Shown: positions 14,685 to 31,898 of the stretch, one piece after another | Numbering within the stretch: position 1 is the first letter of the stretch | How the letters are laid out: each line of letters starts with the position of its first letter | From: Anaerolineae bacterium | Lineage (GTDB): Bacteria > Chloroflexota > Anaerolineae > Aggregatilineales > Phototrophicaceae | Direction: 5' to 3' | DNA length: 50,670 bases | Assembly: GCA_023382675.1 (NCBI GenBank) | Contig: JAHDWN010000046.1 | Location: forward strand, 1-50,670 | The notes under the pieces: generated by a model | What the model saw: only the letters and a program-made list of their open reading frames with translations | What the model was told of the DNA's origin: nothing | Database searches by the model: none | Position numbers and translations under genes: made by a program

Positions 14685-15107
14685 TTTTCCGAGTTCGGCA
14701 TCCAACAAACGCGCGGCTTCAAAGCTCTGAAGTTGTGGCTGACCTTACAACAAACGGGAATTGAGGGCTACTGCAAACTAATTTCACACGACATAGACAT
14801 GGCACACGTGCTACAATCACGGATAAGGGCACGTTCCAATTTTGAGTTGATCGCAGCCGGCCCGCTCAGTGTCACCGGTTTCCGCTATGCACCGCCAGGC
14901 GGAGGTGATCTGCGCGCTCTGAATCAATCCCTGCTCAAAATCGTACAAGCTAAAGGCCGTGTATTCCTCACAAGCACTGAACTTGACGGCCAACTGGTTT
15001 TGCGAGCTTGTATCGTCAATTACCGCACACGAGAAGCCGATCTGGAATTGCTGCTTGATGCCATTGAGGAGGCTGGTGACTACGTGCTGAAGTGCACAGG
15101 GGGGTGA
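14685..15107 (+). pseudogene. Remnant of a PLP-dependent (group II) decarboxylase, C-terminal end only
   Basis: The open frame from 14685 to the TGA at 15105-15107 encodes the last roughly 140 residues of an aromatic-amino-acid/glutamate decarboxylase-type enzyme. Recognisable pieces are TRGFKALKLWLTLQQTGIEG (equivalent to the RxFRALKVW block after the PLP lysine) and FLTSTELDGQLVLRACIVN near the end. An in-frame TAG at 14682-14684 stands directly upstream, and about 330 N-terminal residues including the PLP lysine are missing; 14573-14684 carries no recognisable part of them. The 124-codon frame from TTG at 14733 has no ribosome-binding site. A truncated, probably dead gene is the best reading. 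Confidence 0.75.
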
Positions 15108-15185: not shown

Positions 15186-15263
15186 AAGACATAGTCATTG
15201 GACCCGGTAGAGACTTTCATAAGGCATGGGCAGATCGCTCAGGCCGGGTTAGAGGAGCGAGAG

Positions 15264-15635
15264 ATGAGGCGCGTTCTCTATATTGAAGATAATCCCGATA
15301 ATCGTATGCTGGTGCGCCGCGTTCTTATGGCATCGGACTACGAATTTGAGGTTCTTGAGGCCGAGAATGCCATTATTGGGATTGAATTGGCGCTCACGAA
15401 AGCGCCCGACTTGATCTTGATGGACATCAGTATGCCGGAGATGGATGGGTTGTCTGCCACGCGCAAACTCAAGACCATGCCCCAACTGAACGGCGTTCCA
15501 ATTGTCGCGCTGACGGCAAACGCGATGGAAAAAGACGAAGATCAGGCAGTCGCTGCCGGTTGCGATGGCTTTATCCGGAAGCCGATTGATATTGATCGAC
15601 TTCCCAATGACATTATGAGCTACTTTAGGAGCTAG
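15264..15635 (+). CDS. Single-domain response regulator (receiver), first gene of the signalling cluster
   Basis: A 123-residue stand-alone receiver of the CheY/DivK type. The start at 15264 is fixed by GAGGAG six bases upstream and gives the normal receiver N-terminus MRRVLYIEDNPDNRMLVRR. The phospho-acceptor Asp is in LILMDISMPEMDG, the conserved Thr in VALTANAM and the Lys in FIRKPIDID, so the site is intact. There is no output domain. It probably carries phosphate to or from the hybrid kinase of the same cluster. The next receiver gene starts five bases after its stop. Confidence 0.93.
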   Translation: MRRVLYIEDNPDNRMLVRRVLMASDYEFEVLEAENAIIGIELALTKAPDLILMDISMPEMDGLSATRKLKTMPQLNGVPIVALTANAMEKDEDQAVAAGCDGFIRKPIDIDRLPNDIMSYFRS

Positions 15636-15640
15636 CAGTC

Positions 15641-16081
15641 ATGAGTGAGACGGCGGGAACAAAAGCACGCGCGCCGATCGAACCGAGCGATGCGCACGTA
15701 TTGGTGGTCGAAGACAATGTGCCAAACTTCGTGCTGATCGCGCGGATGTTGGCATTTATGGGCGTTCAGCGTTGCGAGTGGAAAACCTCCGGCTGGCAGG
15801 TGGTGCAGTTTGCAGATACTTTGCCGCGTGTAGATTTGATCTTGCTGGACATTCGCCTGCCATACGAAGACGGCTACCAGGCGCTGCAAAAACTGCGCAC
15901 CAGCGCCCGGTTGAAGGATACGATCATCGTCGCTGTCACAGCAGAAGCAAGCGAAGATCAGATGCGCCGGGCAAGAAAAGCGGGTTTTGATGGTTTCATG
16001 GGTAAGCCGCTTGATCCGGACAGATTTCCCACCCAGATTCGCAGACTCTTGAATGGTGAAGAAGTCTGGGAATGGAAATGA
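15641..16081 (+). CDS. Single-domain response regulator (receiver), second
   Basis: A 146-residue receiver with a polar N-terminal tail of about 20 residues. The acidic pair is in LVVEDNVPNF, the acceptor Asp in LILLDIRLPYEDGY, the Thr in AVTAEASE and the Lys in FMGKPLDPDRFP. The loop after the acceptor Asp reads RLPYEDG where MPxMDG is usual, so the face that contacts partners may differ from that of the preceding receiver. A ribosome-binding site (AGGAGC) lies at the end of the previous gene. An 83-base gap without clear signals separates it from the first GAF gene. Confidence 0.92.
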   Translation: MSETAGTKARAPIEPSDAHVLVVEDNVPNFVLIARMLAFMGVQRCEWKTSGWQVVQFADTLPRVDLILLDIRLPYEDGYQALQKLRTSARLKDTIIVAVTAEASEDQMRRARKAGFDGFMGKPLDPDRFPTQIRRLLNGEEVWEWK

Positions 16082-16164: not shown

Positions 16165-17439
16165 GTGACACACAACCCCCAGACGGGCGACGCAACCGGT
16201 AATCGCAGACATCGTCAGAGTGTCTCACCGGTTGCGATGGACGAAATCCAAACGCTCTATGCAATCAACCAGCAACTACCGAGCGCAGAAGATATAAGCG
16301 CAATCATGCGCGTATTACAGTCAACTGTAGCAGCGGACGCCGCCAGCTTGCTTCACATTGCAATCGAGCGAATGAACCACACGATTTCGCTGCAATATGC
16401 GTTGACAGGTGACAGCGCGACAATTCCTGCACAGAAGTTGGATATTCCATTTAACAGCATCGCGAACCAAGCTCAAACAATCGACTTTTTCGAACAAAGC
16501 GGAAACACAGACGACAGTCTGAGCGCGCTGGTGACACGGCACGGGGGGCAGAGCCATATCGTCATCCCGCTGATCGATCAGGGGCGCGTTTCCGATTTTA
16601 TTGTTGTTGTTTACAAATCGGCCCGCACATTTACTCCGGCTATCCGCCAGTTATTTGAATTCTTCGCGCGTCAAGCGAACGTAGTCGCACAAAACCAACG
16701 CCTGCTGCGCGAATCACAATCCGGAAATGCCCATTTCGAGCGGCAGCTCAAGGTTTTGGAGACTCTCAACCTGCTGGCGAACAGCATCGGTGTGGACACC
16801 GATGAGCAGGGCATTATGTTGGTAACCATGCAGACGCTGGTCGAAGCGACCGGCGCAGATCATGCAGGGACGGTCTTGATTGACCCAGACGGCAAGGCAG
16901 CCTCGGTAACGAGTGAATATCCAGATCAGGGCGCCATCGGTGTAAACATCGATGTAGCGAACAACCCGGTGATCGATTTGCTGCGCCAGGACATGAGCCG
17001 CCCGATTCTGATCGAAGATGTCGAGCACGATAAACTGATCGCGCCGACGGTACTAGAGGCGCTGCGTGGAATTGGCATCAAGTCGATTATCATCGCGCCG
17101 CTGACGGTCGGTGGGGAACTGATTGGATCGGTCGGGCTGGACATGTACACGCTCGACCGCAAGTTCTCGCCAGAGATGATCGAACTGGTCGATGCATTGA
17201 CAAGCCAGTTGGCGATCTACATTCAAGACGCACGGGCGCGCCGGTCGGCGGCCATGCGCCTGGAACACAGTCAGATGGTCGAGCAAGTCATCAATCGTTT
17301 TCGGACGCTGAACTTGGTCGACAGCCTGCTGCTGGAAGCAGCGCGTGGCTTACAAGAGATGCTGGATGCCAGACGCGTGGCTATTCGACTGGGCGACACT
17401 GAGGTGGCGCGGGCGGACCAGGAGGCCAGTCAGGTATGA
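16165..17439 (+). CDS. Soluble GAF-domain sensor protein A (no kinase domain)
   Basis: A 424-residue cytosolic protein. It has two GAF domains (about residues 25-180 and 197-350), a coiled-coil-like linker, and then only the first half of a third GAF (about 374-411, ending in RRVAIRLGD), followed by a short acidic tail. The GTG start follows GGGTGAGG at a suitable distance. GAF domains bind small ligands or mediate dimerisation; the ligand cannot be predicted. There is no HisKA, HATPase, GGDEF or other output domain. It is coupled to the next gene by an ATGA overlap, and with the three following sensors it probably feeds the hybrid kinase downstream. Confidence 0.85.
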   Translation: MTHNPQTGDATGNRRHRQSVSPVAMDEIQTLYAINQQLPSAEDISAIMRVLQSTVAADAASLLHIAIERMNHTISLQYALTGDSATIPAQKLDIPFNSIANQAQTIDFFEQSGNTDDSLSALVTRHGGQSHIVIPLIDQGRVSDFIVVVYKSARTFTPAIRQLFEFFARQANVVAQNQRLLRESQSGNAHFERQLKVLETLNLLANSIGVDTDEQGIMLVTMQTLVEATGADHAGTVLIDPDGKAASVTSEYPDQGAIGVNIDVANNPVIDLLRQDMSRPILIEDVEHDKLIAPTVLEALRGIGIKSIIIAPLTVGGELIGSVGLDMYTLDRKFSPEMIELVDALTSQLAIYIQDARARRSAAMRLEHSQMVEQVINRFRTLNLVDSLLLEAARGLQEMLDARRVAIRLGDTEVARADQEASQV

Positions 17440-19031
17440 ATCAGTTGGTTCAGATTACAACACTGACGGATCTGCGGGCACGTTTCATCGGTGCGCTGGC
17501 AATCGCCTCGATTGCCATTGGCCTTGCCGGACTGGCACCAACCCACCTGGTGATCGGGCAAAGCCTGGGCACTGAGACGACGATTGTGTTGCTTTTGGGT
17601 GGGCTGTGGCTGCTCCTGCTGATACGCGGTTACGCCGATCTCGCGGCACTGGGTCTGTGTGCCTCATTGACACTGGCATCCCTGACACCGCCGCCGATGT
17701 TCCTGGTGATCGCCGTGACGGCATTGCTCGCAGCAGCCGCGCTGCTGACACGCCGGGGTTATCTAATCGTTTGGACAGTCATCATTGTACGTCTTGCGTT
17801 TGCGGCGCTCGAATTTGTAACACAAACCCCCAATTCTCTTTGGGAACTGGGCAGTAACTACCTTATACCGCTAGCAGTCATCCTGATTACCAGTTTGTCG
17901 GCACGGTTCTTGATTTCGAATGCAGAGCGCACGGCGAGTCAGTCGGCGCGCGCTGCGCATCTGCTGCAATTCACGGCTGAAATCGCCCATATCACCAGCC
18001 AGTCACTTGGGCTTACCCCCCTGCTAGGCCAGGTTACGCTGCAAATTCGCGAGCGATTTGGGTACTACCATGTGCAGGTGTTCCTGGTCGATAATACGGG
18101 CGACTATGCTGGTCTGGTGGCGAGCACAGGTGAAGTTGGGCAGCAATTGTTGATGCGCAAACACCGTCTTGCCGTCGGTTCCAACAGCGTAATCGGCCAG
18201 GCGACGGGGCGCGGTGAACCCGTCATCGCTCGCGATAGCGACCCGAAAAACGTGCGCTTTCGCAATGAACTGCTGCCTGCGACGCGCGCGGAACTTGCTT
18301 TGCCGATCAAAGAGGGTACCCAGACAATCGGCGTGCTGGATGTCCAGAGCAGGGATGATGATGCTTTCGACCAGAACGAAGTTCAATCGCTACAAACTCT
18401 GGCGAATGTTCTGGCGTCAGAAATCCGCAACATTCGCCTTTATGAGAAGCAAGTGGCAACAGCGCAAGATAACGAACGCCTGTATCAACAAACTCAGACC
18501 GACCTGGAAGAGATCCAACGGCTCAACCGCGAGCTTACCGGCAATGCCTGGCGCGATTACTTGCGAGAGATGGGTGGGGTCGCAGGCGTCACGCTGGATC
18601 AAAAACAGCAAACAGGCGATCTAAGCTGGAGCGAGGAACTGCGGGCAGCAGCACAGGGCGACGTGATTGAAGACATCACCCCGGATCATTCGAAAGTCGC
18701 GATGCCGCTGAAGCTGCATGGCAAATTGATCGGCGCAGTGGAAATCGAGACCGATCATGAAATCCCGCAAAGTAAGATCCAGGCCATGAGCGAAGTGCTG
18801 GAATACCTGGCAACCAGTTTGGAGAATGCCCGTCTATATGAAGCGTCGCAGATTGAAAACGTTCAGAAGCAACGGCTCAACGAAATCGTGACGCGCTACG
18901 AGACCGTAGGCTCAGTTGAGGAACTGCTGCGAGTAACATTGCAGGAACTTGGCGAAACACTGGGCGCGGAAAGCGGCACAATCCGATTGGGGACGGCACC
19001 GGCTGCCGAAACTAACGGAAGGGGTGCATGA
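17436..19031 (+). CDS. Membrane-bound GAF sensor protein B (no kinase domain)
   Basis: A 531-residue protein with about six N-terminal hydrophobic helices (residues 18-160), making an integral membrane sensor module that I cannot assign. A canonical GAF follows (about 178-339) with the cluster-specific signature FGYYHVQVFLVD and RAELALPI. Next comes a divergent GAF-like module marked by a Trp motif (AWRDYL near 370, then the core AMPLKLHGKLIGAVEIE near 421 and LENARLYEAS near 462), and a half-GAF stub at the C-terminus (about 478-518, ending in GTIRLG). No output domain is present. Its ATG overlaps the previous stop, and its own TGA overlaps the next ATG. Confidence 0.85.
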   Translation: MNQLVQITTLTDLRARFIGALAIASIAIGLAGLAPTHLVIGQSLGTETTIVLLLGGLWLLLLIRGYADLAALGLCASLTLASLTPPPMFLVIAVTALLAAAALLTRRGYLIVWTVIIVRLAFAALEFVTQTPNSLWELGSNYLIPLAVILITSLSARFLISNAERTASQSARAAHLLQFTAEIAHITSQSLGLTPLLGQVTLQIRERFGYYHVQVFLVDNTGDYAGLVASTGEVGQQLLMRKHRLAVGSNSVIGQATGRGEPVIARDSDPKNVRFRNELLPATRAELALPIKEGTQTIGVLDVQSRDDDAFDQNEVQSLQTLANVLASEIRNIRLYEKQVATAQDNERLYQQTQTDLEEIQRLNRELTGNAWRDYLREMGGVAGVTLDQKQQTGDLSWSEELRAAAQGDVIEDITPDHSKVAMPLKLHGKLIGAVEIETDHEIPQSKIQAMSEVLEYLATSLENARLYEASQIENVQKQRLNEIVTRYETVGSVEELLRVTLQELGETLGAESGTIRLGTAPAAETNGRGA

Positions 19032-20722
19032 TGATCGATTCCCTGTTCCGCTTCCTTTTTACGCTTCGCTACCCCTATACCAACAGCGTCATGCGCCAGC
19101 GCGCCTGGGGGCTGTTGGCGATGACATGGCTGTCTGTCGTGGCCTGGGCGCTGTATTTGTTCGGGGCGGCGCTGCCTAACATCAACGCTGGGGTGTCGTC
19201 CAATCTTTTCTTGACACCGAGTTTGCTGGCGCTGCCTGTGGCCGCCTTCATTGCCCTCTATGCGCTGCAAACGGGTCGGCTGCGTACAGCAGCAGCCATC
19301 TTCACCTACATGCTCCTGTTGAGCACTGCGCCGCTGCTGTACACGTCACCTGAAGGGCTTTTGCCGCTGGCAGTCGTTCCGGCTCTGATCGCGGGCGGCG
19401 TTTTGCTCAACCGACGTCAGTATCTGGTTGTAGTCGTACTGACTCTGGGTTTACTGGCTGGCCGCGCGATCTGGCTGAGCAATTACACTGACCCCTATGT
19501 GTTTGTCCCACACAATAACTTCGATTTGCTGCTCATTGTTCCAGTGGTGACTCTGGGAAGCGCAGCAGCATTCCTGTACGTATTTAGTGGCAACGACGAA
19601 CGTACCCTTAGCAACGCGCTTGACATGGCGCGTTTCATGCAGACGGCTGCAGAACATGGCACAGCGCCCACAACGGATGTGAACGAGGCGGATCTATTGA
19701 GCAGTCTTGTTCGAGCTCTGGAGGAAGATTTCGGTTTCTTCAACGTCCAGGTGTACATGATCGGCGATGAGCGCCGCCTCGTGCGCCGCGCGCGAATGGC
19801 ATTGGGCATGACTGTGGAGCGCGACGCGCGCAGCTTCATCAACATCGGCAGTGCAACGTTGGTAGGCCAGTCTGCCGAAAAACGCGAGATCGTCGTCGTA
19901 GACAACCTATCGCCGAAAGAAGACCAGTCGCTGTTGACAGCCCCTGCACGACGCGCGCTGGCTATTCCACTGATCGCAGACGGCGAATTGTTCGGCGTCA
20001 TCGAAGCCGACAGCGAAAAAGATCGGGCGTTTGAAAAAGATCAGGTAGAGGCCATCACGTTGACTGTTCAGCGCACGGCGAGTCTGCTCATCATGCAGCG
20101 GCGCATATCCGAGTTGAAGACCGAGCTACGGGAAGCGCAAGGCAACCTGAACAACCTGACATCGCTGTTGCGTGAACAAGATGCCCGCCTGAAGGAAAAC
20201 ATGCGCACAACCTGGAACACCTATGTGAACAAGTATGGCCTGAGTGCGACGGGTTACGACCTCTTCCGCGAGGCTGACAGGTATCGGCTGATGCAAGCAG
20301 CGGACATCCCAGCCAGGCTACGCACGGTCCTTGAAAAGGGTGAGTTGTTTATCGAAGAAGAGGAAGATGTTCAAACTCTGACGATCCCGATCGCCTTCCG
20401 AGGGGAACTATTAGGCGCAATGTCTTACTCACTGCCGCCGGGGCAACTGTTGAATCAGCGCAAGATCGAACTGGCACGGAGCGTCGCTGAACGTTTGGGC
20501 GCGGCGCTGGAGAATACGCGGCTTCTGGAACAGACGCAAGCACAAGCGGAACGCGAATTCCAGGCGAGCACGATTGGCGCACGCCTGACCGGTATCACCG
20601 ATGTACAAACCGTGCTTGATCTGGCAGCAGCAGAATTTCAAACCGCGCTCGGCGCGGTTTATGCACGCGCCTATCTTGAAAGCGCGCCCAGCGGCGCGCG
20701 CGCCGAACAGGAGGGGCCATGA
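19028..20722 (+). CDS. Membrane-bound GAF sensor protein C (no kinase domain)
   Basis: A 564-residue protein with the same layout as its upstream neighbour. About six N-terminal helices (residues 25-190) are followed by a GAF (about 205-358, signature FGFFNVQVYMIGD), a coiled-coil segment (about 360-390), a Trp-marked GAF-like module (TWNTYVNKYG near 395; IPIAFRGELLGAMSYS near 453; ENTRLLEQ near 495) and a half-GAF C-terminus (about 514-552). Its GAF lacks the ASTGEVG strand motif of the paralogues, so its ligand may differ. No output domain is present. Start and stop both form ATGA overlaps with neighbours, so translation of the series is coupled. Confidence 0.84.
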   Translation: MMIDSLFRFLFTLRYPYTNSVMRQRAWGLLAMTWLSVVAWALYLFGAALPNINAGVSSNLFLTPSLLALPVAAFIALYALQTGRLRTAAAIFTYMLLLSTAPLLYTSPEGLLPLAVVPALIAGGVLLNRRQYLVVVVLTLGLLAGRAIWLSNYTDPYVFVPHNNFDLLLIVPVVTLGSAAAFLYVFSGNDERTLSNALDMARFMQTAAEHGTAPTTDVNEADLLSSLVRALEEDFGFFNVQVYMIGDERRLVRRARMALGMTVERDARSFINIGSATLVGQSAEKREIVVVDNLSPKEDQSLLTAPARRALAIPLIADGELFGVIEADSEKDRAFEKDQVEAITLTVQRTASLLIMQRRISELKTELREAQGNLNNLTSLLREQDARLKENMRTTWNTYVNKYGLSATGYDLFREADRYRLMQAADIPARLRTVLEKGELFIEEEEDVQTLTIPIAFRGELLGAMSYSLPPGQLLNQRKIELARSVAERLGAALENTRLLEQTQAQAEREFQASTIGARLTGITDVQTVLDLAAAEFQTALGAVYARAYLESAPSGARAEQEGP

Positions 20723-22971
20723 ACAAAGGGACATGGGCTTTTCTCAATCCGGTCAACTGGCCGATCTGGGTCAAGATCGTCATATTGGTAGGTACGGGAA
20801 TTTTGACGTTAGCCATACCTGCGTTTATGACGGTGCGTACCGGCACGATCGAGAATGGCATCGACAATGCGGAAAGCTACATTGAACTGAACGGCACGCA
20901 GCACGCGATCTCCATTAACAGACTGATCGACAGTGCGCAAACTGCGTTCGACGAGTTCATGAGCGATCAAACGACTCTGACCCAGCACATCAGTTTTCTG
21001 ACCAGCGCCACGGACTCGAACACGACCAGAACGACGCTCCAGGATATTTACACGGAGACATTGATCAACCCGACAGACGCGGTGTTCGATCAGGTGCGCC
21101 TTCTGAATACGAACGGTATCGTGGTGGCCGCACAAGCTGACGGAGCTGCCGAGGCCGCTGGTCTCCTGGGAACGAATCAATCCCGCACGAATGCATTCCG
21201 CACGGCAACGGCAGCGGTCGCCGAAGGCAGAGCTCGCACGATGGCCGCATCTCTGGTCGACGGCGAACCGGTTCTCGAATTGATCCAACTCATTGCGCGG
21301 CGCAATGGCGATCCTGCCGGGTATTTGATCGGGCGCATCGACAATGACCGCCTGGTCGCGCTGCTAGAAGACACGGATGCCAACTACCCGGTAACGACAT
21401 TCTTGATCAGCCAGGAGGATGTCGTGTTCGGGCCGGCACTGGCCGAAGGCGCGCTTGTGCCCAGCCGTTCATTAGGAACGATTCGCGCCTTGAGTGGGCA
21501 AACGGGAATGAGCCGCTATCGCCTGGAGAGCGGTGAAGAGATCCTGGGCTATTATGCTCAGCTACCGGGTACCACGCTGGCGCTGGTCAGTCAGGCGCGG
21601 CTAGAGGATGTGGCTCAGCGTGCCTTTGACTTTTACAATGCGCGCAGTTTTGTCCTGGTAGCAGGATTTGTAGCGCTCGGTGCGGTGTTGGTAGCGGCGC
21701 TCTTGCTGCTGAACAACAACCTGACGCCACCACTGAACCGGCTGCGCTTGGCTTCATTGGCACTGGCGCAGGGGGATTTCACCTATGAAGTCCCGGATCG
21801 TCAGCGTGGTGACGAGATTGGCGCGCTCGCCAACTCGTTCATGCTGATGCGCGACCAAGTGCAGACGATGGTTCAGGCGCTGGAAGCAAGACTTGCCGCT
21901 AGAGCACGAGACATCGGTGCTACACAGCAGATCAGCCAGTTTGCAGCCACACAGCGTGATTTGCAGTCGCTGCTGGAAAACGTCGTGACTCTGTTGGTGG
22001 AGCGATTCACCAACCTATATCATGCGCAAATCTTCTTGATTGATCCGGATGGGAAGCACGCTATCCTGCAAGCGAGCACGGGCGAAGTGGGCAAACAACT
22101 GTTGGCGCGTGGACACCGTCTGCCTGTAGGCAGTGTCAGTATCGTGGGACAGGCCGCTGCGCAGAAGCGCCCGATGACCGCCCGCGACGTGGGTGCGAGC
22201 CAATTGCACCAGAAGCAGCGCTTCCTGCAGGAAACACGTGCGGAAATGGCAATTCCCCTGCTCTTCGGCGAACGTGTCATCGGCATTCTGGACGTGCAGA
22301 GCCGGCAAAAAGACGCATTCGTCCACGAAGAGGTTTACGTCTTGCAGACAGTAGCGAACCAGATTGCGGTGGCGATCCAGACGGCGCAGCTGTACGAGGA
22401 ATCGGTGAAAAGATTGGCGCAAATCGAGAACGCCAATCGCAAAGCGACGCTGCAAGCGTGGGAAACGTACATGCAAGAGCAGCAGAAAGATAAGTTGAAC
22501 AGCAGCGCAGGCCTTGAGTCGAACGAGGATCTTTCAACGTTGCGCCGTGCTGCTCTAACAAACCGCCAGGCCGTGGTAGGTGAACTTACAGAGCGCGAGA
22601 CATTTCCTATCGCCGTACCGATCCAGATCGGCGGCGCAGTCCTGGGCGCGGTCGAGTGGGAAATCCCGGCGACGGACTTCAATGAGAACAAGCTCGAATT
22701 GGCAAAAGAATTAGCCAATCGTCTGGCAATCGGTCTGGAAAATGCACGTTTGTTCCAGGAGAGCCAGCGTGCAGCCGAACGTGAGCGCATGGTCAACAAT
22801 ATTGCGGCGCGGTTGGCTTCTCAGACCGACATCAGCGAAATCTTGCAAACGGCGGTGCGAGAAGTTGGGCAGGCATTGCGAACTCCACAAGTCAGCATTC
22901 GCTTGCATGGCGGAAAGCATACTGCAAACGGTAGTAATGGCTCACACGAAATTCCTGGCGAGAAGAACTGA
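20719..22971 (+). CDS. Membrane GAF sensor D with extracytoplasmic domain and HAMP (no kinase domain)
   Basis: A 750-residue transmembrane sensor. One helix (about residues 16-40), an extracytoplasmic sensor domain of about 265 residues of the Cache type (inferred from size and position), a second helix (about 308-332), then HAMP (about 335-390, with the proline-rich start LTPPLNRLR and a DEIGALANSF segment). A GAF follows (about 407-561, signature YHAQIFLIDPDGKHAIL), then the Trp-marked GAF-like module (QAWETYM near 580; LENARLFQES near 673) and the half-GAF C-terminus (about 691-730). There is no kinase or methyl-accepting region. The stop lies 12 bases before the hybrid kinase start. Confidence 0.87.
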   Translation: MNKGTWAFLNPVNWPIWVKIVILVGTGILTLAIPAFMTVRTGTIENGIDNAESYIELNGTQHAISINRLIDSAQTAFDEFMSDQTTLTQHISFLTSATDSNTTRTTLQDIYTETLINPTDAVFDQVRLLNTNGIVVAAQADGAAEAAGLLGTNQSRTNAFRTATAAVAEGRARTMAASLVDGEPVLELIQLIARRNGDPAGYLIGRIDNDRLVALLEDTDANYPVTTFLISQEDVVFGPALAEGALVPSRSLGTIRALSGQTGMSRYRLESGEEILGYYAQLPGTTLALVSQARLEDVAQRAFDFYNARSFVLVAGFVALGAVLVAALLLLNNNLTPPLNRLRLASLALAQGDFTYEVPDRQRGDEIGALANSFMLMRDQVQTMVQALEARLAARARDIGATQQISQFAATQRDLQSLLENVVTLLVERFTNLYHAQIFLIDPDGKHAILQASTGEVGKQLLARGHRLPVGSVSIVGQAAAQKRPMTARDVGASQLHQKQRFLQETRAEMAIPLLFGERVIGILDVQSRQKDAFVHEEVYVLQTVANQIAVAIQTAQLYEESVKRLAQIENANRKATLQAWETYMQEQQKDKLNSSAGLESNEDLSTLRRAALTNRQAVVGELTERETFPIAVPIQIGGAVLGAVEWEIPATDFNENKLELAKELANRLAIGLENARLFQESQRAAERERMVNNIAARLASQTDISEILQTAVREVGQALRTPQVSIRLHGGKHTANGSNGSHEIPGEKN

Positions 22972-22983
22972 GATAGGCGAGTA

Positions 22984-25900
22984 GTGACTATGGTGCGTAA
23001 TAACACCCCATACATTCCGCAATCACAGCGTTTGCGCCGGCGAGCCGCCAATCGCATTACGCTGATCGTATTGATCGCTTTCTTGATCATCGGGCTGCTC
23101 AGCTTCCTGGGTATCCGAACGGTCGCGCGTGAAAATCTGGAGCGCACCCATGTCGAAACCCTGCAATCCGTCAGCCAGGAAATCGATACGAAGTTAAACC
23201 AGACCTACGAAGACATTCAGTTTCTGACGACCAATAGCGCAATACGCACGTTCGCGAGTGCCGTGCGGGCGACCGGCGGCCAGAGAAACAGCGCCGCCAT
23301 TGAGAGTGCGCAAACGGCACTGGCACAGACGTTCGCGACAACCCTGGTTCGTAACCCGGAAGAATATCTGGCGATCCGCTATGTCGATTTGAATGGCGAT
23401 GTATGGTCGGAGGTGCGCCAGGAAAACGGGACTCCACACATCTCCCTGGACTCCGAGGTCACAGCCCAGACCAACGATGCAACCTTCCTCCAGGGACTTC
23501 AAGCGCCGCTAAACACAATGGTCACAAGCGAGCTGCGCTTCCTGACGTATGCGGGAAGCGACGAACTTGTCGAGCCGCTGACGCCTTACGTCCGGTTCAT
23601 GACCCCAACGAGCACAGACACTGATTCGATGACCACTGCTGGCATGGTACAGATTGACGTCGCGCTGGCGCAGATTCTAAACGTCCTCACGACTGACACA
23701 ACCATCACCAGTGTCGAGGGTCGCCGGGTTGTTCTCATCGACGATCAGACCACTCTGATCGCAGACACATCGCTGACGGATGCAAATATTCTGCGCCGAA
23801 TTGCCAACGGGTTTGGCGTTTCATTAGAGTCACAGCTTCCAGCTTTGGCAAACGCCATCACAACGAATAACAGCGCTGTCCGCGCCAATGTGATCGAAGG
23901 CGTGATGGCTTCGTCTTTGCCGATTGCGCTTACCGGGGCCAACGGAACCCCCTGGTCGCTTCTGTTACTGGACAACGCAGGTTCGGCACTCGACTCGGCA
24001 ACTTTGAATGGCATTTTGGCTTTGCTGGGCAGCGTGATGTTGGGCGGCATCGTCGGTGTGGTGCTTCAGACCGTATTACGCGACACTATGCGCCCGCTCG
24101 ATCAAACGGCAATGCTGGCAATGCAGATTGCTGACGCAGCGGTAGACCCGGCGCAGCAGACCGGTGTGGGTTTCACGGAGAGTGAAGCCCCAGACGAAAT
24201 CACCCTGGCAATTGAAAATCTGCGCCTCCAGGTGCAATCGCTGAGTCAGACTCTGGACATGCGCACGGAACACTACCGGCACAATCTGGAGTTGGCGGCA
24301 CGCATCAGCCGTGAGACGGCGACTGTGCACGACCTCAGCATCCTGATCAACCGTACCCTCGATCTCATTTGTGACTCATTCGGCTTCTATCACGCACAGG
24401 TGTTCCTGGTCGACGAAGCCGGCGTGAACGCCGTGCTGCGGTACAGCCATGGTAGCGCGGGTCAACGTTTGCTGGCGCAGGAGCACAAACTGGCCGTCGG
24501 TTCTGCGTCGGTCATCGGCCAGGTCACGGTAAAAGGTGAACCGGTCGTCGTCAACGACACGAGCAGCGAAACATCCGGGCCACATCATTTCAATCCGGTG
24601 CTGGCGACAACCCGTGCGGAAATGGCGCTGCCGCTGACCATCGGGAGACGCACGATCGGCGCGCTCGACATCCAGAGTGAGACGGCCAACGTCTTCCGCG
24701 AGGACGAGGTTCAAATCTTCCAGCTTCTCGCCGACCAGCTTGCCATCGCGATTCAGAATGCCCGCTTGCTGATCGAGACAGAAGCGCGTGTGGAACAAAT
24801 CGACCGGCTCAACCAGCAGTTCATCCGCTCCGCCTGGGAGAAAACGCTGGAAACCGGCGAAATCGGCGAATCGTATTACTACGATCTCATGCAGGTTGAG
24901 CGCGGCACGCCCAAAGACACAGGCAAAGGCCTGCGTATCCCCCTGACCATTCGTGGTGTTGTCATCGGCGAGATTGAGGCGAATGCCGGCGCAGACCGTA
25001 AGCTGAGCGAAGGCGATGAAGCTTTCATGCGCGCGGTTGCTGACCGTATCGGCCTCGCGATTGAGAATGCTCGCTTGCTCGGCGAAACTCAGAATACACT
25101 GGCCGAGACCTTCTCGCTCTACGAACTCAGCCGGTCGTTGAGCGAGGCAGCCAACCTTGAAGACGTAATCCGCGCCATCAATCTGACCGTTGTCACTGAT
25201 GCGACTGGCGGCCAGATTGGCATTTTCAAAGTCGATGCAACCGACATTACCCAGGTGAATCTAGAAATCACCAACACCTGGACACGGCGTGAATATGAGG
25301 AGGCCACCGGCACCCTCCTCCATCTGCAAGATCATTCACTGTTGACTTCGCTGACACCAAATCAGGTCATTCTCGTACAGGACATTGCCAGTGACGGGCG
25401 AGTGGATGCTGAATTGCGATCCCTGCTGCAAACCTCACTGGGGGCGAAAGCGGCGGTTCTGATCCCGATCAGCGTGCGCGGTAGCGTTCGTGGTGTACTG
25501 ACACTGGGTTTCCCGACGGTGCGCGCCTTCAGTCAGCGCGATGGACGTATCTTTGCCGCTTTGATTGACCAGGCCAGCGTCGCGATTGATAACCGCCTCC
25601 TGGTGCAGCAGAACGAGCAAGAAAGAGAGCGGTTAGACCTGATTTTGGAAACGCTGCCCGCCGGCGTAATCGTGCTCGATCCGCAAACACTGCGGCCTTT
25701 GCAGGCGAATCAACAGGCACAAACACTGCTCGGACAGGTCATCGATAGCAACACAGCGTTCACCATCGAGGGCTACAACCTGTATCGCACGGGCACTAAC
25801 GCATACTATCCAGCGACTGAAATGCCCGTTTTCAGTGCGCTTGCAAACCGGCATCAGGAATTCTGTGACGACATCACGGTTTATCACCCTGACGGCCTCC

Positions 25901-28900
25901 AGATCGATCTGCTGGCTAACGCCGCGCCGATTCTAAACGAACAAGGGCAAGTCTCGGCGATTGTGGCCGCATTCCAGGACATCAGCACCCTGCGAAATCT
26001 GGAAAACACGCTGCAAGAGAACTTGCGTGAGACGATCTTGCTGTATGAGACAACACGCTCGCTCGCGGAAGCTCCCGAAGTCGGCGACGTTATCGACCTG
26101 ATGCTCGCGCAGCTCAGTCTCCAGGACGCCAGTGAAGTCTATCTGGTGATGACGGATGAGAAGACCAATTCTCCTCACGTTATCCGGTCGCTGAGTGGTC
26201 TGGAGGGTGAATTCCCGCTGCCGCAACAATTGCTGGATGTGCAGCAACCGCTGTTTATCAGCGACGTCGCACATCCACGCCAGCTTGAGGATGAAGCCAC
26301 GCGCATTGCTCTGATGAACCAGGGGATTCGCAGCCTCATCGTAGCGCCTCTGCGCGTCCAATTCCGTGACGATTCACCTCCTAGTTGGGTGGTCATGGCA
26401 TTCGCTGACCAACAAGACTTCAGCATCGAACGAGAGCAATCGTTTGTGGCGCTGATCGACAGTGTGGCAGTGACGCTCGACAACCGCTATCTGGTACAGA
26501 GTACGCAGGTAGCGCTGGACACAACGGCTGCGTTGTACACCGCTACCAGTACGATCAGCCGCGCGCAGGATTTGAATGAATTGAGCGAATCGATTCAGGA
26601 AGCACTTCACTGGCTGAAGGCTGACATCTATGCAGGGTTCGTGCGTTCCGGTGATGTGCTCCAACCGATGTTCAATGTGAACCTTGACGGCGGTGAAATT
26701 GACTTCAGCAGTCTCCTTGAGATGCATCGACCAACAGATGCGGTTTTTATCCAAGACTTGCAGGAGGTACTCGAGCCGACGCCTTTCGAGCAGGAACTGT
26801 TCAATCTGGGCATCCTGCGTGCATTTGGGATGGTGCCTATCCGTTTGCAGGCACGTTTCGAAGGTTACGTGTTGATAGGATATCATCGCGCACACTCATT
26901 TTCGGAGGGCGAGACCCGTTATATGGCGGCCATCGCAGACAGCAGTTCGGTCATGATCGATAACTTGCTGCTCCTCGACCAGATCCAGGACAGCTTGCAA
27001 GAAACGAGCGTTCTGTATTTGTCGAGCCGCGAATTGAGCGATGCGCTGAATGAAGAAGATATCGTCCAGGTTATCGTCAACCATCTGCTGGATCGGTCGG
27101 CAAACCAGGTGTTTGTATGCTCGTTTGACAATGGCATCAGCGAAGGATCAGAGAATACGTTGCGCGTCGTCGCTCACTGGCAGAGCGAAACCGATGAGCC
27201 AATCGATTTCATGGGCATCATGCTGTCGTCGGATTATTTCCCAGCGTGGCGCATCCTCAGCAGTGAAGATCTGATGCTGATTGACGACGTGGAAACAGAT
27301 GAACACCTGAGCGATGCCGAGCGGCAAGGTCTACAGAGCCTGGGGCTGCGGTCGGTCAGCGTCCTACCACTTAGCGGGCGCACGCAGCGACTGGGTGTGA
27401 TCCTGATCGGCGATAATGCCCCGTTCAAACACAGCGACCGTGAGGAACGTATCTACGGTTCATTTGCCGAACAAGCCTCCTTACGTCTCGAAGCCTCACG
27501 CCTGTTGATCCAGACCGAGCGGCGTGCGCGCCAGCTAACAACCTCCGCTCGCGTCGGCCAGCTCGCAAGTTCGCTGGAAGAACTGAGCCGCCTGCTGCCG
27601 ACCATCGTCGATCTGATCAAAGAGGCCTTCGGCTATGATCATGCTCAGATCTTCCTGATGGATGAAGAGCATCGTTTTGCGGTTCTGTCCGCGAGTACAG
27701 GCGAGGCCGGTGAGCAGCTCCTGGCGGCGAAGCACAAGCTGGAGAAAGGTTCACAATCGGTCATCGGCCAGGTCACAGCTACGGGTGAGCCGGTGTTGGC
27801 GCTGGATACAAGCTTGACCGGTGCGGTGCATCGGCCAAACCGTTTCTTGCCCAACACCCGCGCAGAAATCGCCGTGCCACTCATCCTCAAAGGGCGCGTC
27901 GTTGGCGCGTTGGACGTGCAATCCAACACCCCGAATTTCTTCAACCAGGATGATATTAGCGTGTTGACCACGCTCGCAGCGCAAATCAGCGTTGCGATCG
28001 ATAACGCCGCGCTCTACGAAGAATCACAGGCGCGCGCGAAAGACATGTACTTCCTGTTCACAGTCGCAACAGCGGCGGCGGGCGCAGACACGCTGAGTGA
28101 AACCATGCAGAACATCACGCTGGCGCTTCAGGAACTTCTCGAAGCCGCCGCCGTGAGCGTTTACCTGCCGGTGGAACTGACGGATGGCGAAATCACCATC
28201 ACGGAACTGCGCCCTGTCGCCATCGCCGGTTCGGACATGCCGCTTTCGGAGATCTCTGAAATCCGGTTGGGTGAGACGGACACACTCCATGGGCGGTCTG
28301 CAAGCGAACTTCGCCCATACATCATCGGTGATATCTCGGAAGAGCACGACTACGTGCCCATCATCGGCGATGCACAGTCCGCCATTATCGTTCCGCTATC
28401 AGTCGGCAATCAGCTCATCAGCTTGTTAACGATGGAAAGCCTGGAACTGAACGCGTATGACGATGACACGTTGACGCTGCTATTGACACTGTCCGGTACA
28501 CTGTCCGCCATCGTGCAAAACCAGAAGCTTCTGGAAGAACTCCAGCAAACCAACGAACAGCTTCTGGAGCTTGACCGGCTCAAGAGCGACTTCCTGGCAA
28601 ACATGAGCCACGAACTGCGCACGCCGCTCAACTCGATCATCGGCTTCAGCCGCGTGATCTTGAAAGGCATCGATGGCCCGCTGACCGAGATGCAGGAACA
28701 AGACCTGACCACGATCTACAACAGTGGACAGCATTTGCTCAATCTGATCAACGACATTCTGGATCAGGCAAAGATCGCCGCCGGCAAGATGGATCTGCAA
28801 TGCGACTACTTCGACATCAAGCCGGTGATCGAGAGTGTGCGCTCAATCGGCATTGGTTTGGTGAAAGACAAGCCAATTGACATCATCGTTCACATGGCTC

Positions 28901-30225
28901 CGGGAATGCCGAAGGCCTATGGCGATGAATTCAGGACACGGCAAGTGCTGCTGAACCTGGTTTCGAACGCGGCCAAATTCACCAAAGAAGGCTCAATTAC
29001 ACTCAATACGTATACTCAAGATGAGCCGACCGGTGAAACGTTTATCTGCATTGAAGTGACTGACACCGGTATCGGTATCGCAGAGCAAGACTTGCCACTG
29101 CTCTTCGAAGCCTTCCGCCAGATCGACTCGTCATTGACCAAGACTCAGAGCGGTACGGGGTTGGGCTTGCCGATTGCCAAATCGCTGGTCGAAATGCAGG
29201 GCGGCCAAATGACGGTGCAATCGGAGATCAACGTTGGTTCGACGTTCGCCATCTATATCCCGATTGCCCCATCCACAGCACCGCTGACATCCACGCAGGA
29301 AATGCAGGCAGTGAGCGATGGCTCGGCTGGCACGAACGGAACACATGCGCAGAAAGTGAAAGCCCCGCCACCACCAAAAGCAGATGAGCTGGAGGAAGAA
29401 GCCGCGCCTGCTTCGCAGATCACAGAGAAACAACCTGTGCCGATCAGCGCGCCCAAGCCTACTCATTTCAAACGGCAGGTCTTGTTGATCGAAGACAATC
29501 CCGATATGGTCGATCAATTCCGGCGCGTCTTGCAGCGAGACGGTTTCGACGTATTCACAGCTTCGATCACCCTTGAAGCAGAAGCGATGGCTAGCGGCTT
29601 GCATCCCAGTCTGATTATTCTCGACGCCAATTTTGCGGGAGACACCGGCTGGGAAATTCTGTCGCGGTTACAGCAGCGTGATGACACAGCGGATATTCCG
29701 GTGATCGTCGTCGCATTGAGTGACGAACACGAACGCGCGCTTGAAAATGGGGCGTTCACGTTTATCCGCAAGCCCTTCATGCCTGAGGTGCTCGCACAGG
29801 CAGCGAAAGACGCTGAGACGGAAGCCCAGCGTGACCGCATCTTGATCATCGACGATGAACCGAACAGCGTGCGTCTGTTGAATGATATTCTCGCGGATGC
29901 AGGCAAATACCGTGTCTTCTGGGCCGCGAATGGCGTTGAAGGTGTGTCCATGGTGGCGCGGCGGCGGCCTGATCTGGTGATCGTGGATCTGAGGATGCCA
30001 GAAATGGATGGTTTCCAGGTCATCCAGGAACTGAGAGGCAACCCGGAAACTGCCGCGATCCCGATCATGGTGGTTACGGGTGACACGCTGAACGAGACCG
30101 AAATGACACGGCTCAGCCTCCTCAAGGTCATCTATAAGCCAGATCTCGATATGCAGGGGCATCGTCAGTTCGTCGAAACTGTGAAGCAGCATCTTTCCAC
30201 CACGAATGGAGATCATCGAGGCTGA
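22984..30225 (+). CDS. Giant multi-GAF hybrid histidine kinase with two receivers
   Basis: A 2413-residue membrane kinase. Helix 1 (about residues 25-47), an extracytoplasmic sensor region (to about 335), helix 2 (337-360) and a HAMP-like linker come first. Then follow GAF1 (436-596), a Trp-marked GAF-like module (610-699), GAF2 (706-880), PAS (885-1005), and GAF3 to GAF7 (about 1015-1856). HisKA carries the phospho-acceptor H1876 in NMSHELRTPLNS. HATPase (about 1945-2095) has N, G1 (DTGIGI) and G2 (GTGLGLPIAKS) boxes. A Pro/Ala linker leads to receiver 1 (2164-2278, D2214) and receiver 2 (2284-2405, D2335). Receiver 1 seems to have Ala where the conserved Thr/Ser is expected. The GTG start is preceded by AGG. 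It is the only kinase in the cluster. Confidence 0.93.
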   Translation: MTMVRNNTPYIPQSQRLRRRAANRITLIVLIAFLIIGLLSFLGIRTVARENLERTHVETLQSVSQEIDTKLNQTYEDIQFLTTNSAIRTFASAVRATGGQRNSAAIESAQTALAQTFATTLVRNPEEYLAIRYVDLNGDVWSEVRQENGTPHISLDSEVTAQTNDATFLQGLQAPLNTMVTSELRFLTYAGSDELVEPLTPYVRFMTPTSTDTDSMTTAGMVQIDVALAQILNVLTTDTTITSVEGRRVVLIDDQTTLIADTSLTDANILRRIANGFGVSLESQLPALANAITTNNSAVRANVIEGVMASSLPIALTGANGTPWSLLLLDNAGSALDSATLNGILALLGSVMLGGIVGVVLQTVLRDTMRPLDQTAMLAMQIADAAVDPAQQTGVGFTESEAPDEITLAIENLRLQVQSLSQTLDMRTEHYRHNLELAARISRETATVHDLSILINRTLDLICDSFGFYHAQVFLVDEAGVNAVLRYSHGSAGQRLLAQEHKLAVGSASVIGQVTVKGEPVVVNDTSSETSGPHHFNPVLATTRAEMALPLTIGRRTIGALDIQSETANVFREDEVQIFQLLADQLAIAIQNARLLIETEARVEQIDRLNQQFIRSAWEKTLETGEIGESYYYDLMQVERGTPKDTGKGLRIPLTIRGVVIGEIEANAGADRKLSEGDEAFMRAVADRIGLAIENARLLGETQNTLAETFSLYELSRSLSEAANLEDVIRAINLTVVTDATGGQIGIFKVDATDITQVNLEITNTWTRREYEEATGTLLHLQDHSLLTSLTPNQVILVQDIASDGRVDAELRSLLQTSLGAKAAVLIPISVRGSVRGVLTLGFPTVRAFSQRDGRIFAALIDQASVAIDNRLLVQQNEQERERLDLILETLPAGVIVLDPQTLRPLQANQQAQTLLGQVIDSNTAFTIEGYNLYRTGTNAYYPATEMPVFSALANRHQEFCDDITVYHPDGLQIDLLANAAPILNEQGQVSAIVAAFQDISTLRNLENTLQENLRETILLYETTRSLAEAPEVGDVIDLMLAQLSLQDASEVYLVMTDEKTNSPHVIRSLSGLEGEFPLPQQLLDVQQPLFISDVAHPRQLEDEATRIALMNQGIRSLIVAPLRVQFRDDSPPSWVVMAFADQQDFSIEREQSFVALIDSVAVTLDNRYLVQSTQVALDTTAALYTATSTISRAQDLNELSESIQEALHWLKADIYAGFVRSGDVLQPMFNVNLDGGEIDFSSLLEMHRPTDAVFIQDLQEVLEPTPFEQELFNLGILRAFGMVPIRLQARFEGYVLIGYHRAHSFSEGETRYMAAIADSSSVMIDNLLLLDQIQDSLQETSVLYLSSRELSDALNEEDIVQVIVNHLLDRSANQVFVCSFDNGISEGSENTLRVVAHWQSETDEPIDFMGIMLSSDYFPAWRILSSEDLMLIDDVETDEHLSDAERQGLQSLGLRSVSVLPLSGRTQRLGVILIGDNAPFKHSDREERIYGSFAEQASLRLEASRLLIQTERRARQLTTSARVGQLASSLEELSRLLPTIVDLIKEAFGYDHAQIFLMDEEHRFAVLSASTGEAGEQLLAAKHKLEKGSQSVIGQVTATGEPVLALDTSLTGAVHRPNRFLPNTRAEIAVPLILKGRVVGALDVQSNTPNFFNQDDISVLTTLAAQISVAIDNAALYEESQARAKDMYFLFTVATAAAGADTLSETMQNITLALQELLEAAAVSVYLPVELTDGEITITELRPVAIAGSDMPLSEISEIRLGETDTLHGRSASELRPYIIGDISEEHDYVPIIGDAQSAIIVPLSVGNQLISLLTMESLELNAYDDDTLTLLLTLSGTLSAIVQNQKLLEELQQTNEQLLELDRLKSDFLANMSHELRTPLNSIIGFSRVILKGIDGPLTEMQEQDLTTIYNSGQHLLNLINDILDQAKIAAGKMDLQCDYFDIKPVIESVRSIGIGLVKDKPIDIIVHMAPGMPKAYGDEFRTRQVLLNLVSNAAKFTKEGSITLNTYTQDEPTGETFICIEVTDTGIGIAEQDLPLLFEAFRQIDSSLTKTQSGTGLGLPIAKSLVEMQGGQMTVQSEINVGSTFAIYIPIAPSTAPLTSTQEMQAVSDGSAGTNGTHAQKVKAPPPPKADELEEEAAPASQITEKQPVPISAPKPTHFKRQVLLIEDNPDMVDQFRRVLQRDGFDVFTASITLEAEAMASGLHPSLIILDANFAGDTGWEILSRLQQRDDTADIPVIVVALSDEHERALENGAFTFIRKPFMPEVLAQAAKDAETEAQRDRILIIDDEPNSVRLLNDILADAGKYRVFWAANGVEGVSMVARRRPDLVIVDLRMPEMDGFQVIQELRGNPETAAIPIMVVTGDTLNETEMTRLSLLKVIYKPDLDMQGHRQFVETVKQHLSTTNGDHRG

Positions 30226-31898
30226 TGGAGACACATTCGACACGCCACATTGACCTGGAATGTCTGCACTGCAAAACGCGGGTTCCATTGGACAAAAATG
30301 TGGCGGGCTGTCCCAACTGCGGCGAGAACATTCTCGAAGCACGCTATGATCTCAATCTGATCAACGTCCAGGAATGGCAAGCGGCGCTGAAAAGGCGCCG
30401 CCCTGGAGTCTGGCGCTATCTGGAAGTCCTGCCGATCTACGACAAGCGCAACATTGTCAGTCTGGGCGAAGGCGGAACGCCATTGATTCGTTCCCAGGCG
30501 CTGGCGAGCATGTTGGGGCTGAAGTATCTCTACATCAAAGACGAACGCCAGGGGCCGACGAATAGTTTCAAAGACCGGCAGGCCACAGTCGCGATTTCTG
30601 CGATGCGCGAAATCGGTGTCGATGAGGTCGTGGTGGCGAGCACGGGCAACGTAGCAATCGCTTATGCTGCGTATGGCGCACGCGCCGGGATCAAGCTGTG
30701 GGCGTTCTTCCCCAGCCTGACGCCAGGCCCCAAGATGCGTGAAGCAGCGCTCTACGGTGCGGAAGTCATCAAGATCAGCGGTAGTTACGACGAAACGAAA
30801 GAAATTGCCGCGCGCTTCGCCAAGAACAAACACGTCTTTCTCGACCGAGGCATCAAGAGCGTCGCCGCAATCGAGGCGATGAAGACCATCGCTTATGAAA
30901 TCGCCGAAGACCTGGGTGAAGAACTGGAACACGGGCAGCGCTGGCGTTCGCCGGACTGGTTCTTCCAGGGTGTGAGCGGCGGCATGGGGCCGATTGGAGT
31001 TGCCAAGGGCTTCCGCGAGATGCAGTCGATGGGGCTGGTCGATAAGCTGCCTGCCCTGGGGCTGATTCAATCGACGGGCTGCGCGCCCATGGTCGATGCC
31101 TTTGTGCGCGGCCAACGTATCGCAACGCCTGTGAACAATCCACAGACGGTGATCGCCACCCTGGCGACAGGCAACCCCGGTCGCGCATACGAGCTGCTTT
31201 ACGACTACGTCCAGGAAAATGGCGGCTACTTTGCCGACGCGACCGACGAAGAAGCTTTTGACGCGATCCGTCTGGTAGCGCGGCTGGACGGCATTTCTGT
31301 AGAACCTGCCGCCGGTGTGATGTTCGCCGGGCTGTTCAAAATGGTGCAGCGTGGCATCATCAAGCCGGATGAGGTGGTGGTGCTCAATTGCAGCGGTCAC
31401 ACGCTGCCGGTCGAACGTGAAATTCTGGGCGAGCAGTGGCAGAAACAGGTCGAGCTACAACACGCGAAGACTGTACAACTACCAGAGGATAAGTTGTTAT
31501 CTGCTCTCGATCACATCGAATCGAGCATCCGGCGCATCCTGGTGATCGAAGACAGCCCGGACGCCGCACGCTTGATCAAGCGCCTGCTCGAAGCACGCGC
31601 ACAGAATTACGACGTTCATCTCGCCGATGATGGGCGCACCGGTCTGCAAATGATGCTGGAAATCAAGCCGGATCTGGTGATCACCGATTTGATGATGCCC
31701 GACGTGGACGGTTTCGTCGTCATTGAGGCGATGAAGAGCGACGAGCTTTTGCAGCACGTGCCCATCGTCGTCATCACGGCGAAAGAGCTGACCGCCAGCG
31801 ACCGGGAGCGGCTCAACGGCCAGATCGAGATGCTCCTCCAGAAAGGCTCGTCGATTGACGAAGATTTCATCGACAGTCTGGTGGATAAGCTGGAATAG
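30225..31898 (+). CDS. Threonine-synthase-like PLP enzyme fused to a C-terminal receiver domain
   Basis: A 557-residue fusion. An N-terminal Cys4 zinc ribbon (C13, C16, C29, C32) precedes a fold-type II PLP domain (about residues 70-415) with the Schiff-base lysine K116 in NSFKDRQ, the STGNVAIAYAAYGARAG segment and the glycine loop SGGMGP. This arrangement fits threonine synthase (O-phosphohomoserine to threonine); a related lyase or cysteate-synthase-like enzyme is possible. After a short helical linker, an intact receiver (about 436-557) shows acidic IEDSPD, acceptor D488 in LVITDLMMPDVDG, Thr in VVITAKE and Lys in LLQKGSS. The frame is continuous across the junction. Its ATG shares one base with the kinase stop (TGATG), so it is translated with the kinase and is probably its phosphorylation target. 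Confidence 0.88.
   Translation: METHSTRHIDLECLHCKTRVPLDKNVAGCPNCGENILEARYDLNLINVQEWQAALKRRRPGVWRYLEVLPIYDKRNIVSLGEGGTPLIRSQALASMLGLKYLYIKDERQGPTNSFKDRQATVAISAMREIGVDEVVVASTGNVAIAYAAYGARAGIKLWAFFPSLTPGPKMREAALYGAEVIKISGSYDETKEIAARFAKNKHVFLDRGIKSVAAIEAMKTIAYEIAEDLGEELEHGQRWRSPDWFFQGVSGGMGPIGVAKGFREMQSMGLVDKLPALGLIQSTGCAPMVDAFVRGQRIATPVNNPQTVIATLATGNPGRAYELLYDYVQENGGYFADATDEEAFDAIRLVARLDGISVEPAAGVMFAGLFKMVQRGIIKPDEVVVLNCSGHTLPVEREILGEQWQKQVELQHAKTVQLPEDKLLSALDHIESSIRRILVIEDSPDAARLIKRLLEARAQNYDVHLADDGRTGLQMMLEIKPDLVITDLMMPDVDGFVVIEAMKSDELLQHVPIVVITAKELTASDRERLNGQIEMLLQKGSSIDEDFIDSLVDKLE

Follow-up and report, generated by a model that had tools for sequence, protein, structure and literature searches.

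A conserved half-GAF at the C-termini of sensor proteins in Chloroflexota and its proposed role as a connector

The GAF domain (PF01590, PF13185) has its helix 1, helix 2 and strand 1 in common with the C-terminal ends of the four sensor proteins described here, but those ends lack the other strands, the ligand pocket and the last helix: the protein simply stops. Two further systems come close. A profile of the sensor ends also matches the helical linkers between tandem GAFs (last helix plus next start), which we take to be of the signalling-helix type, but in the sensors this junction is the C-terminus, and strand 1 is still conserved. Multisensor hybrid histidine kinases like the one encoded beside these sensors share with them a frame of first GAF, Trp module and helix, whereas the sensors lack both kinase and output domains and break off partway through the following GAF. 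A domain is normally either retained intact or discarded. In a large set of proteins from one bacterial class, only the opening section of a GAF is retained as the protein end; it is conserved on the whole more tightly than the remaining chain, and it occurs in rows of sensors with no recognised output. A literature search that took in few subscription journals located nothing on C-terminal half-GAFs, which does not show that they are unpublished.

The window, meaning the whole 50,670-nucleotide stretch of Anaerolineae DNA that was analysed, carries the following features.

15198-15635 and 15641-16081 (15198..16081), + strand: two stand-alone receiver proteins, directly upstream of the sensors
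16165..17439, + strand: sensor A, 424 aa, GAF-GAF-stub, that is, two full GAF domains and then the stub (Pfam)
17266..17391, + strand: stub of A, 42 aa, ends VAIRL, then a 15-aa tail
17436..19031, + strand: sensor B, 531 aa, membrane-GAF-Trp module-stub (Pfam; hydrophobic segments by eye)
18549..18761, + strand: Trp module of B, bounds estimated from its homology to D
18864..18989, + strand: stub of B, 42 aa, ends TIRL, then a 13-aa tail
19028..20722, + strand: sensor C, 564 aa, membrane-GAF-Trp module-stub (Pfam; hydrophobic segments by eye)
20552..20677, + strand: stub of C, 42 aa, ends ARAYL, then a 14-aa tail
20719..22971, + strand: sensor D, 750 aa, dCache (sub-threshold)-HAMP-GAF-Trp module-stub (Pfam)
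22459..22668, + strand: Trp module of D, modelled as two helices (the end of a long one, then a short one) and one two-stranded hairpin
22780..22905, + strand: stub of D, 42 aa, ends VSIRL, then a 21-aa NG-rich tail
22984..30225, + strand: hybrid histidine kinase K, 2413 aa, with several GAFs, PAS, HisKA, HATPase and two receivers
25141..25533, + strand: GAF2 of K, a full GAF where the sensors stop, approximate bounds

By their ORF coordinates, A and B, B and C, and C and D each overlap by 4 bases. All four sensors finish in about 42 residues corresponding to helix 1, helix 2 and strand 1 of a GAF (the stub), followed by a short, variable polar tail. At the same point K has a complete GAF instead of an end, as a sequence-only reading of this DNA had proposed. 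The Trp-marked module that it placed before the stub is present in B, C and D and absent from A, where an ordinary full GAF (217-353) comes before the stub. No output domain was matched by Pfam in any of A to D, and no NCBIfam family exceeded its cut-off for the sensors. D and K share a reading frame, with a single TGA and a few codons between them (window 22969-22990); judged by coordinates, the same arrangement is found in the related loci L021 and L040 and not in L022 or L024.

The stub is part of a GAF, and not a GAF domain. At the profile level it has the N-terminal helices and first strand of PF01590; the full sheet with its ligand pocket and the last helix are absent, the stub stopping after strand 1 with no sheet in the model. 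When a profile from 15 stub rows was searched against solved structures, 6oap matched with a whole-chain E of 1.1e-12 (best single stretch 7.8e-9, chain 126-182), and the GAF part of that chain starts, by structural match, at about residue 134. Other matches were 8w26 (E 1.2e-12 over several stretches, the best 1.2e-5), residues 3-42 of 6bhn (E 6.8e-7) and 2lb5 (E 3.5e-6), the last two of which we take to be GAF domains; a designed helical bundle also matched, with E 0.006. In its own genome the stub profile made four strong matches, 83-108 bits, which are the four stubs, and 14 further matches with E <= 1e-3 and at most 40 bits. Of these 14, 9 coincide with the opening 22-30 residues of a Pfam GAF and so mark junctions between tandem GAFs. 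With hhalign, 41 of the 42 stub columns aligned to the start of the sensors' first GAF with a score of 23.4, a value reached by none of 100 column-shuffled controls (maximum 15.2). The claim that A to D end in the opening of a GAF is thus borne out by the structure, own-genome and hhalign matches, which together rule out an ordinary coiled-coil end without GAF similarity. Alignment with GAF2 of K, the comparison that the sequence-only reading had suggested, succeeded for the core and stopped short of the strand: a longer stub core aligned with E 7e-13 up to a point before strand 1, and the 42-column half gave P 0.046. Pfam scans of single stubs found nothing in A, B or C and, in D, a sub-threshold GAF match (1-36, E 0.077) outscored by Catalase-rel (E 0.0027), which we attribute to single-sequence scans being too weak.

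An AlphaFold model of D residues 390-750 (110 rows, pLDDT 91.2, pTM 0.76; the alignment comprised 109 of 164 non-redundant rows and that of the window) predicts how the stub continues from the module before it. The first GAF is modelled as a full GAF, best matched by 3trc (Z 22.6, rmsd 2.1, 165 residues aligned), and these fold-library matches cover only that GAF (model 1-177). The Trp module is predicted to consist of two helices, one long and one short, and a hairpin (239-248/251-261), less than a full GAF sheet and with no counterpart of strands 1 and 2. Its last helix continues into the stub (267-311), followed by a second helix (316-331) and an extended stretch, strand 1 (334-341), with a block pLDDT of 91 and no strand partner in this monomer model, which is compatible with a free-standing helical hairpin too. 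The columns of strand 1 alternate between hydrophobic and polar (V336, I338, L340). Helix periodicity is 105-107 degrees over alpha5 and alpha5-alpha1 (107 for alpha5-alpha1), which is coiled-coil-like; 288-311 alone, at 85 degrees, is not. In a weaker model of K (13 rows, pLDDT 77.6, pTM 0.43) the same frame runs through two helices (252-297 and 301-311) and two strands (318-326 and 334-343) into the remainder of the GAF, so that the position of strand 1 is a paired strand there.

The stub is under strong constraint. Between A to D and their orthologues in the nearest relative, L021, a single species pair, the pooled stubs (168 codons) show 89% identity, dN 0.069 and dS 1.84, compared with 69%, 0.218 and 1.43 for the rest of the proteins (2032 codons) and 59% identity for the tails (63 codons); dS is near saturation, so dN/dS ratios are rough. 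Pooled over the four genes, purifying selection on the stub is thus at least as strong as on the rest of the protein, with the second GAF of A exceeding the stub in conservation. By gene, stub identity in A, B, C and D is 79, 90, 93 and 93%. No other 42-residue window of B, C or D is more conserved than the stub, and in A 49 windows are, around the second GAF. Conservation drops from 3.36 bits at the last L of IRL to 0.71 bits two columns later. Insertions and deletions are rare among 211 related stubs: a helix insert occurs in 3, all A-type rows and each exactly 7 residues long, and a one-residue insert in 6.

The stub is also widely conserved. In the cluster set, made up of the window plus 48 cluster DNA stretches from relatives, 267 ORFs had BLAST matches to A to K; after 24 that are cut at the C-terminus and 20 with a HisKA-type kinase motif were set aside, 211 of the 223 complete nonkinase ORFs carried the stub end, a count that is partly circular since the profile was seeded by 193 C-termini of the same ORFs. 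Judged from their ends, 5 of the 12 others look like downstream genes that were matched by way of a receiver domain, and the remaining 7, from L042, L049 and L056, look broken or out of frame at the end. In the 211, between 4 and 67 residues follow IRL (median, 17), rich in G, A, S, E, P, D and N. A database search for proteins with the same end, as the sequence-only reading had advised, found them in number: 679 ORFs, or 628 distinct ones once identical last 150 residues were removed (the same genome being present in two collections). A wider contig set contributed 202 stub-ended ORFs in 43 of 78 loci; the 35 stubless loci are the lower-ranked ones (L111-L145) and include all 11 titled as other phyla. 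Among genomes of the window's class at least 90 of 396 have the stub (E <= 1e-20), and in a draw from the phylum at least 23 of 301 do (E <= 1e-18), both lower bounds with 13 and 17 candidates scored per genome, respectively. A Thermoflexia record (G704) has a row of at least eight stub-profile matches over 69 bits. By sequence, then, the stub occurs both within the window's class and elsewhere among the Chloroflexota. Beyond that phylum, none was found in 19 loci of 8 non-Chloroflexota genomes and 3 further Acidobacteria records; the best profile matches in those 8 genomes reach at most 48.8 bits, about the level of matches inside a 2351-aa frame of G704 (50.8 bits). Among the interior matches above 35 bits, 30 of 32 were read, and in none was the stub fused to non-GAF sequence, all continuing GAF-like by eye.

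Stub-ended genes are arranged in rows. Up to 10 such ORFs lie on one stretch, all on one strand (L088). Rows of about 8 to 10 stub-ended GAF sensors occur in L088, L084, L087, L164, L191 and contig 91 of G704, and the window has four. Of 482 successive pairs of stub genes, 345 lie within 30 bases of each other and 154 show a 4-base overlap, counts that rest on mechanically assigned starts. Among 141 rows (stretches with at least two stub ORFs), 73 have a long kinase-type ORF behind them at a distance of up to 3 kb; in 55 it carries the HisKA-type motif, and in 18 it qualifies by length only and is interrupted where the stretch ends. A further 57 end within 3 kb of the stretch end, and 11 have neither. 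Where the end of the row can be judged, then, it stands before a large kinase-type ORF in 73 of 84 cases.

Descent of this shared end was followed on a quick tree of the part from the first GAF to the Trp module, with the stub columns left out and SH-aLRT as the only support. Its 84 selected rows comprise 65 sensors and 19 of 49 K-type segments, with C and D representing the window. Stub-ended orthologues of C (9 rows) form their own clade (SH-aLRT 99) at the family level or wider, and those of D (10 rows) do so at the order level (SH-aLRT 98). Three changes between stub-ended and kinase-type rows suffice on this tree, compared with a mean of 17.2 after shuffling. So few changes, together with the C and D clades, argue that the end was inherited through gene duplication. 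This contradicts the idea of four independent truncations, although the accompanying judgment that the ends are not decay holds, given the strong constraint on the stub and its retention across the window's class and further Chloroflexota. Decay, or separate truncation, of the four genes is ruled out by the 211 of 223 ORFs, the 202 ORFs in 43 of 78 loci, the 628 distinct ORFs, the tree and the constraint. The tree is unrooted and contains long branches, with K rows lying among the sensors, and gives no direction between splitting of a kinase and fusion into one.

Covariation within single chains was analyzed by mean-field DCA (436 of the 628 sequences, mixed paralogues with the subfamily signal still in; 54,960 pairs), an approach blind to pairs between different genes. 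Within the stub, helix 1 and helix 2 couple at ranks 4 and 12, helix 1 and strand 1 at ranks 9, 42 and 47, and helix 2 and strand 1 at ranks 41, 50 and 58. The rank 4 pair, 311-319, is nearly local, and R299-L340 (rank 9) and R299-E318 do not fit the hairpin. Within the first GAF, its own strand 1 pairs with its last strand at rank 5, and the hairpins of the Trp module and of the first GAF appear at ranks 29 and 66. Strand 1 of the stub couples to the Trp hairpin at about chance level, with best ranks of 354 (120 pairs) and 366 (130 pairs), and to the last helix (267-298) also at chance level (best rank 178 for 320 pairs). The couplings of helices and strand inside the stub suggest that strand 1 and the two helices are conserved together as one unit.

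We propose that the stub is probably a conserved C-terminal connector, by which GAF sensors that lack an output domain form dimers with, or dock onto, one another and the kinase. The long C-terminal helix of the sensor's last GAF-type module would run straight into helix 1 of the stub, helix 2 would fold back, and strand 1 would pack on both. Two such ends, from the same or sister sensors, would join as a parallel helical bundle; alternatively, one end would pair with the matching helix frame before the complete GAF2 of K. Sensors with no output domain could in this way assemble with, and signal through, the cluster's one hybrid kinase. That the stub joins proteins at all, and that sister sensors and K are the ones joined, we infer as the simplest route because the sensors have no output domain and stand before a kinase-type ORF in most rows that can be judged. 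An earlier suggestion of a docking or assembly element completed by a partner protein fits this proposal. In favour of the connector stand the constraint and its sharp end after IRL, the rarity of indels, the couplings inside the stub, the strand left unpaired in the model of D, and the rows before kinase-type ORFs. Points against it are that the monomer model suits a free-standing hairpin as well, that the stub of A is less conserved than parts of its second GAF, that some top couplings do not fit the hairpin and that the last helix couples to strand 1 at chance level, that 288-311 alone lacks a coiled-coil period, that 11 of 141 rows have no kinase-type ORF found behind them, and that the part preceding the stub is not constant, since A has no Trp module.

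Three other explanations deserve weighing, and we place them in the order given here. The stub could be a self-contained cap, two copies pairing to stabilise the sensor dimer only, with no cross-talk to sisters or K; GAF proteins often dimerise through these helices, and the couplings inside the stub and the heptad-sized inserts suit such an arrangement. Nothing speaks directly against it, but it leaves the action of output-less sensors unexplained, and we consider it rather unlikely as the whole answer, while noting that it is a narrower form of the connector explanation and overlaps with it in probability. It would be improbable, in our judgment, for the stub to be the start of a GAF lost when a sensor kinase was split, kept to cover the end of the long helix and with no binding role. 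The complete GAF of K at the same position and the K rows among the sensors in the unrooted tree agree with such a remnant, but the pooled stub dN is about a third of that of the rest, and every paralogue class retains strand 1, whereas the tail behind it is variable.

We give little credence to the possibility that the stub completes a partner's partial GAF by donating strand 1 to it, the Trp module being the most obvious recipient, with each sensor plugging into the next and finally into K. Its attraction is that the Trp module of D has just one hairpin in the model and the stub has strand 1 with nothing after it. Yet covariation between stub strand 1 and the Trp hairpin is about chance when the equivalent pairing in the first GAF ranks 5, the model places a 45-residue helix between the stub strand and that hairpin in cis, and A has a stub without a Trp module. 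Inspection also disfavours the idea that the following gene product completes the stub with its N-terminus: hydrophobic stretches lie among the first 60 residues of B, C, D and K, and no GAF part was matched there by Pfam.

Should the stub be a sensor-kinase joint, as the connector proposal would have it, it would offer a way to study how one histidine kinase can take input from several sensors, and a marker by which sequence databases could be searched for systems of this kind. It is conceivable, if doubtful, that a row of sensors (four here, up to ten elsewhere) and one giant hybrid kinase form a multi-input complex in which the half-GAF serves as a general plug, allowing sensor subunits to be added or swapped as genes.

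Other genes of the window lie around this cluster. The end of K shares one base with a gene at 30225-31898 (+) encoding a PALP-family PLP enzyme (78-390), presumably threonine-synthase-like, with a receiver domain (438-543) fused to it at the C-terminus. In L045, L057, L058, L064 and L065 the kinase is followed by genes of about 550 aa that match the K receiver and may be the same fusion. Just upstream of the stand-alone receivers, a short ORF (14733-15107, +) matches only the last 52 positions of PF00282 (PLP decarboxylase), just below the family cut-off, and is likely a fragment. Toward the other end of the window, a 1624-aa protein (45685-50559, -) contains ten Big_9/cadherin-like stretches and a CshA-type repeat.
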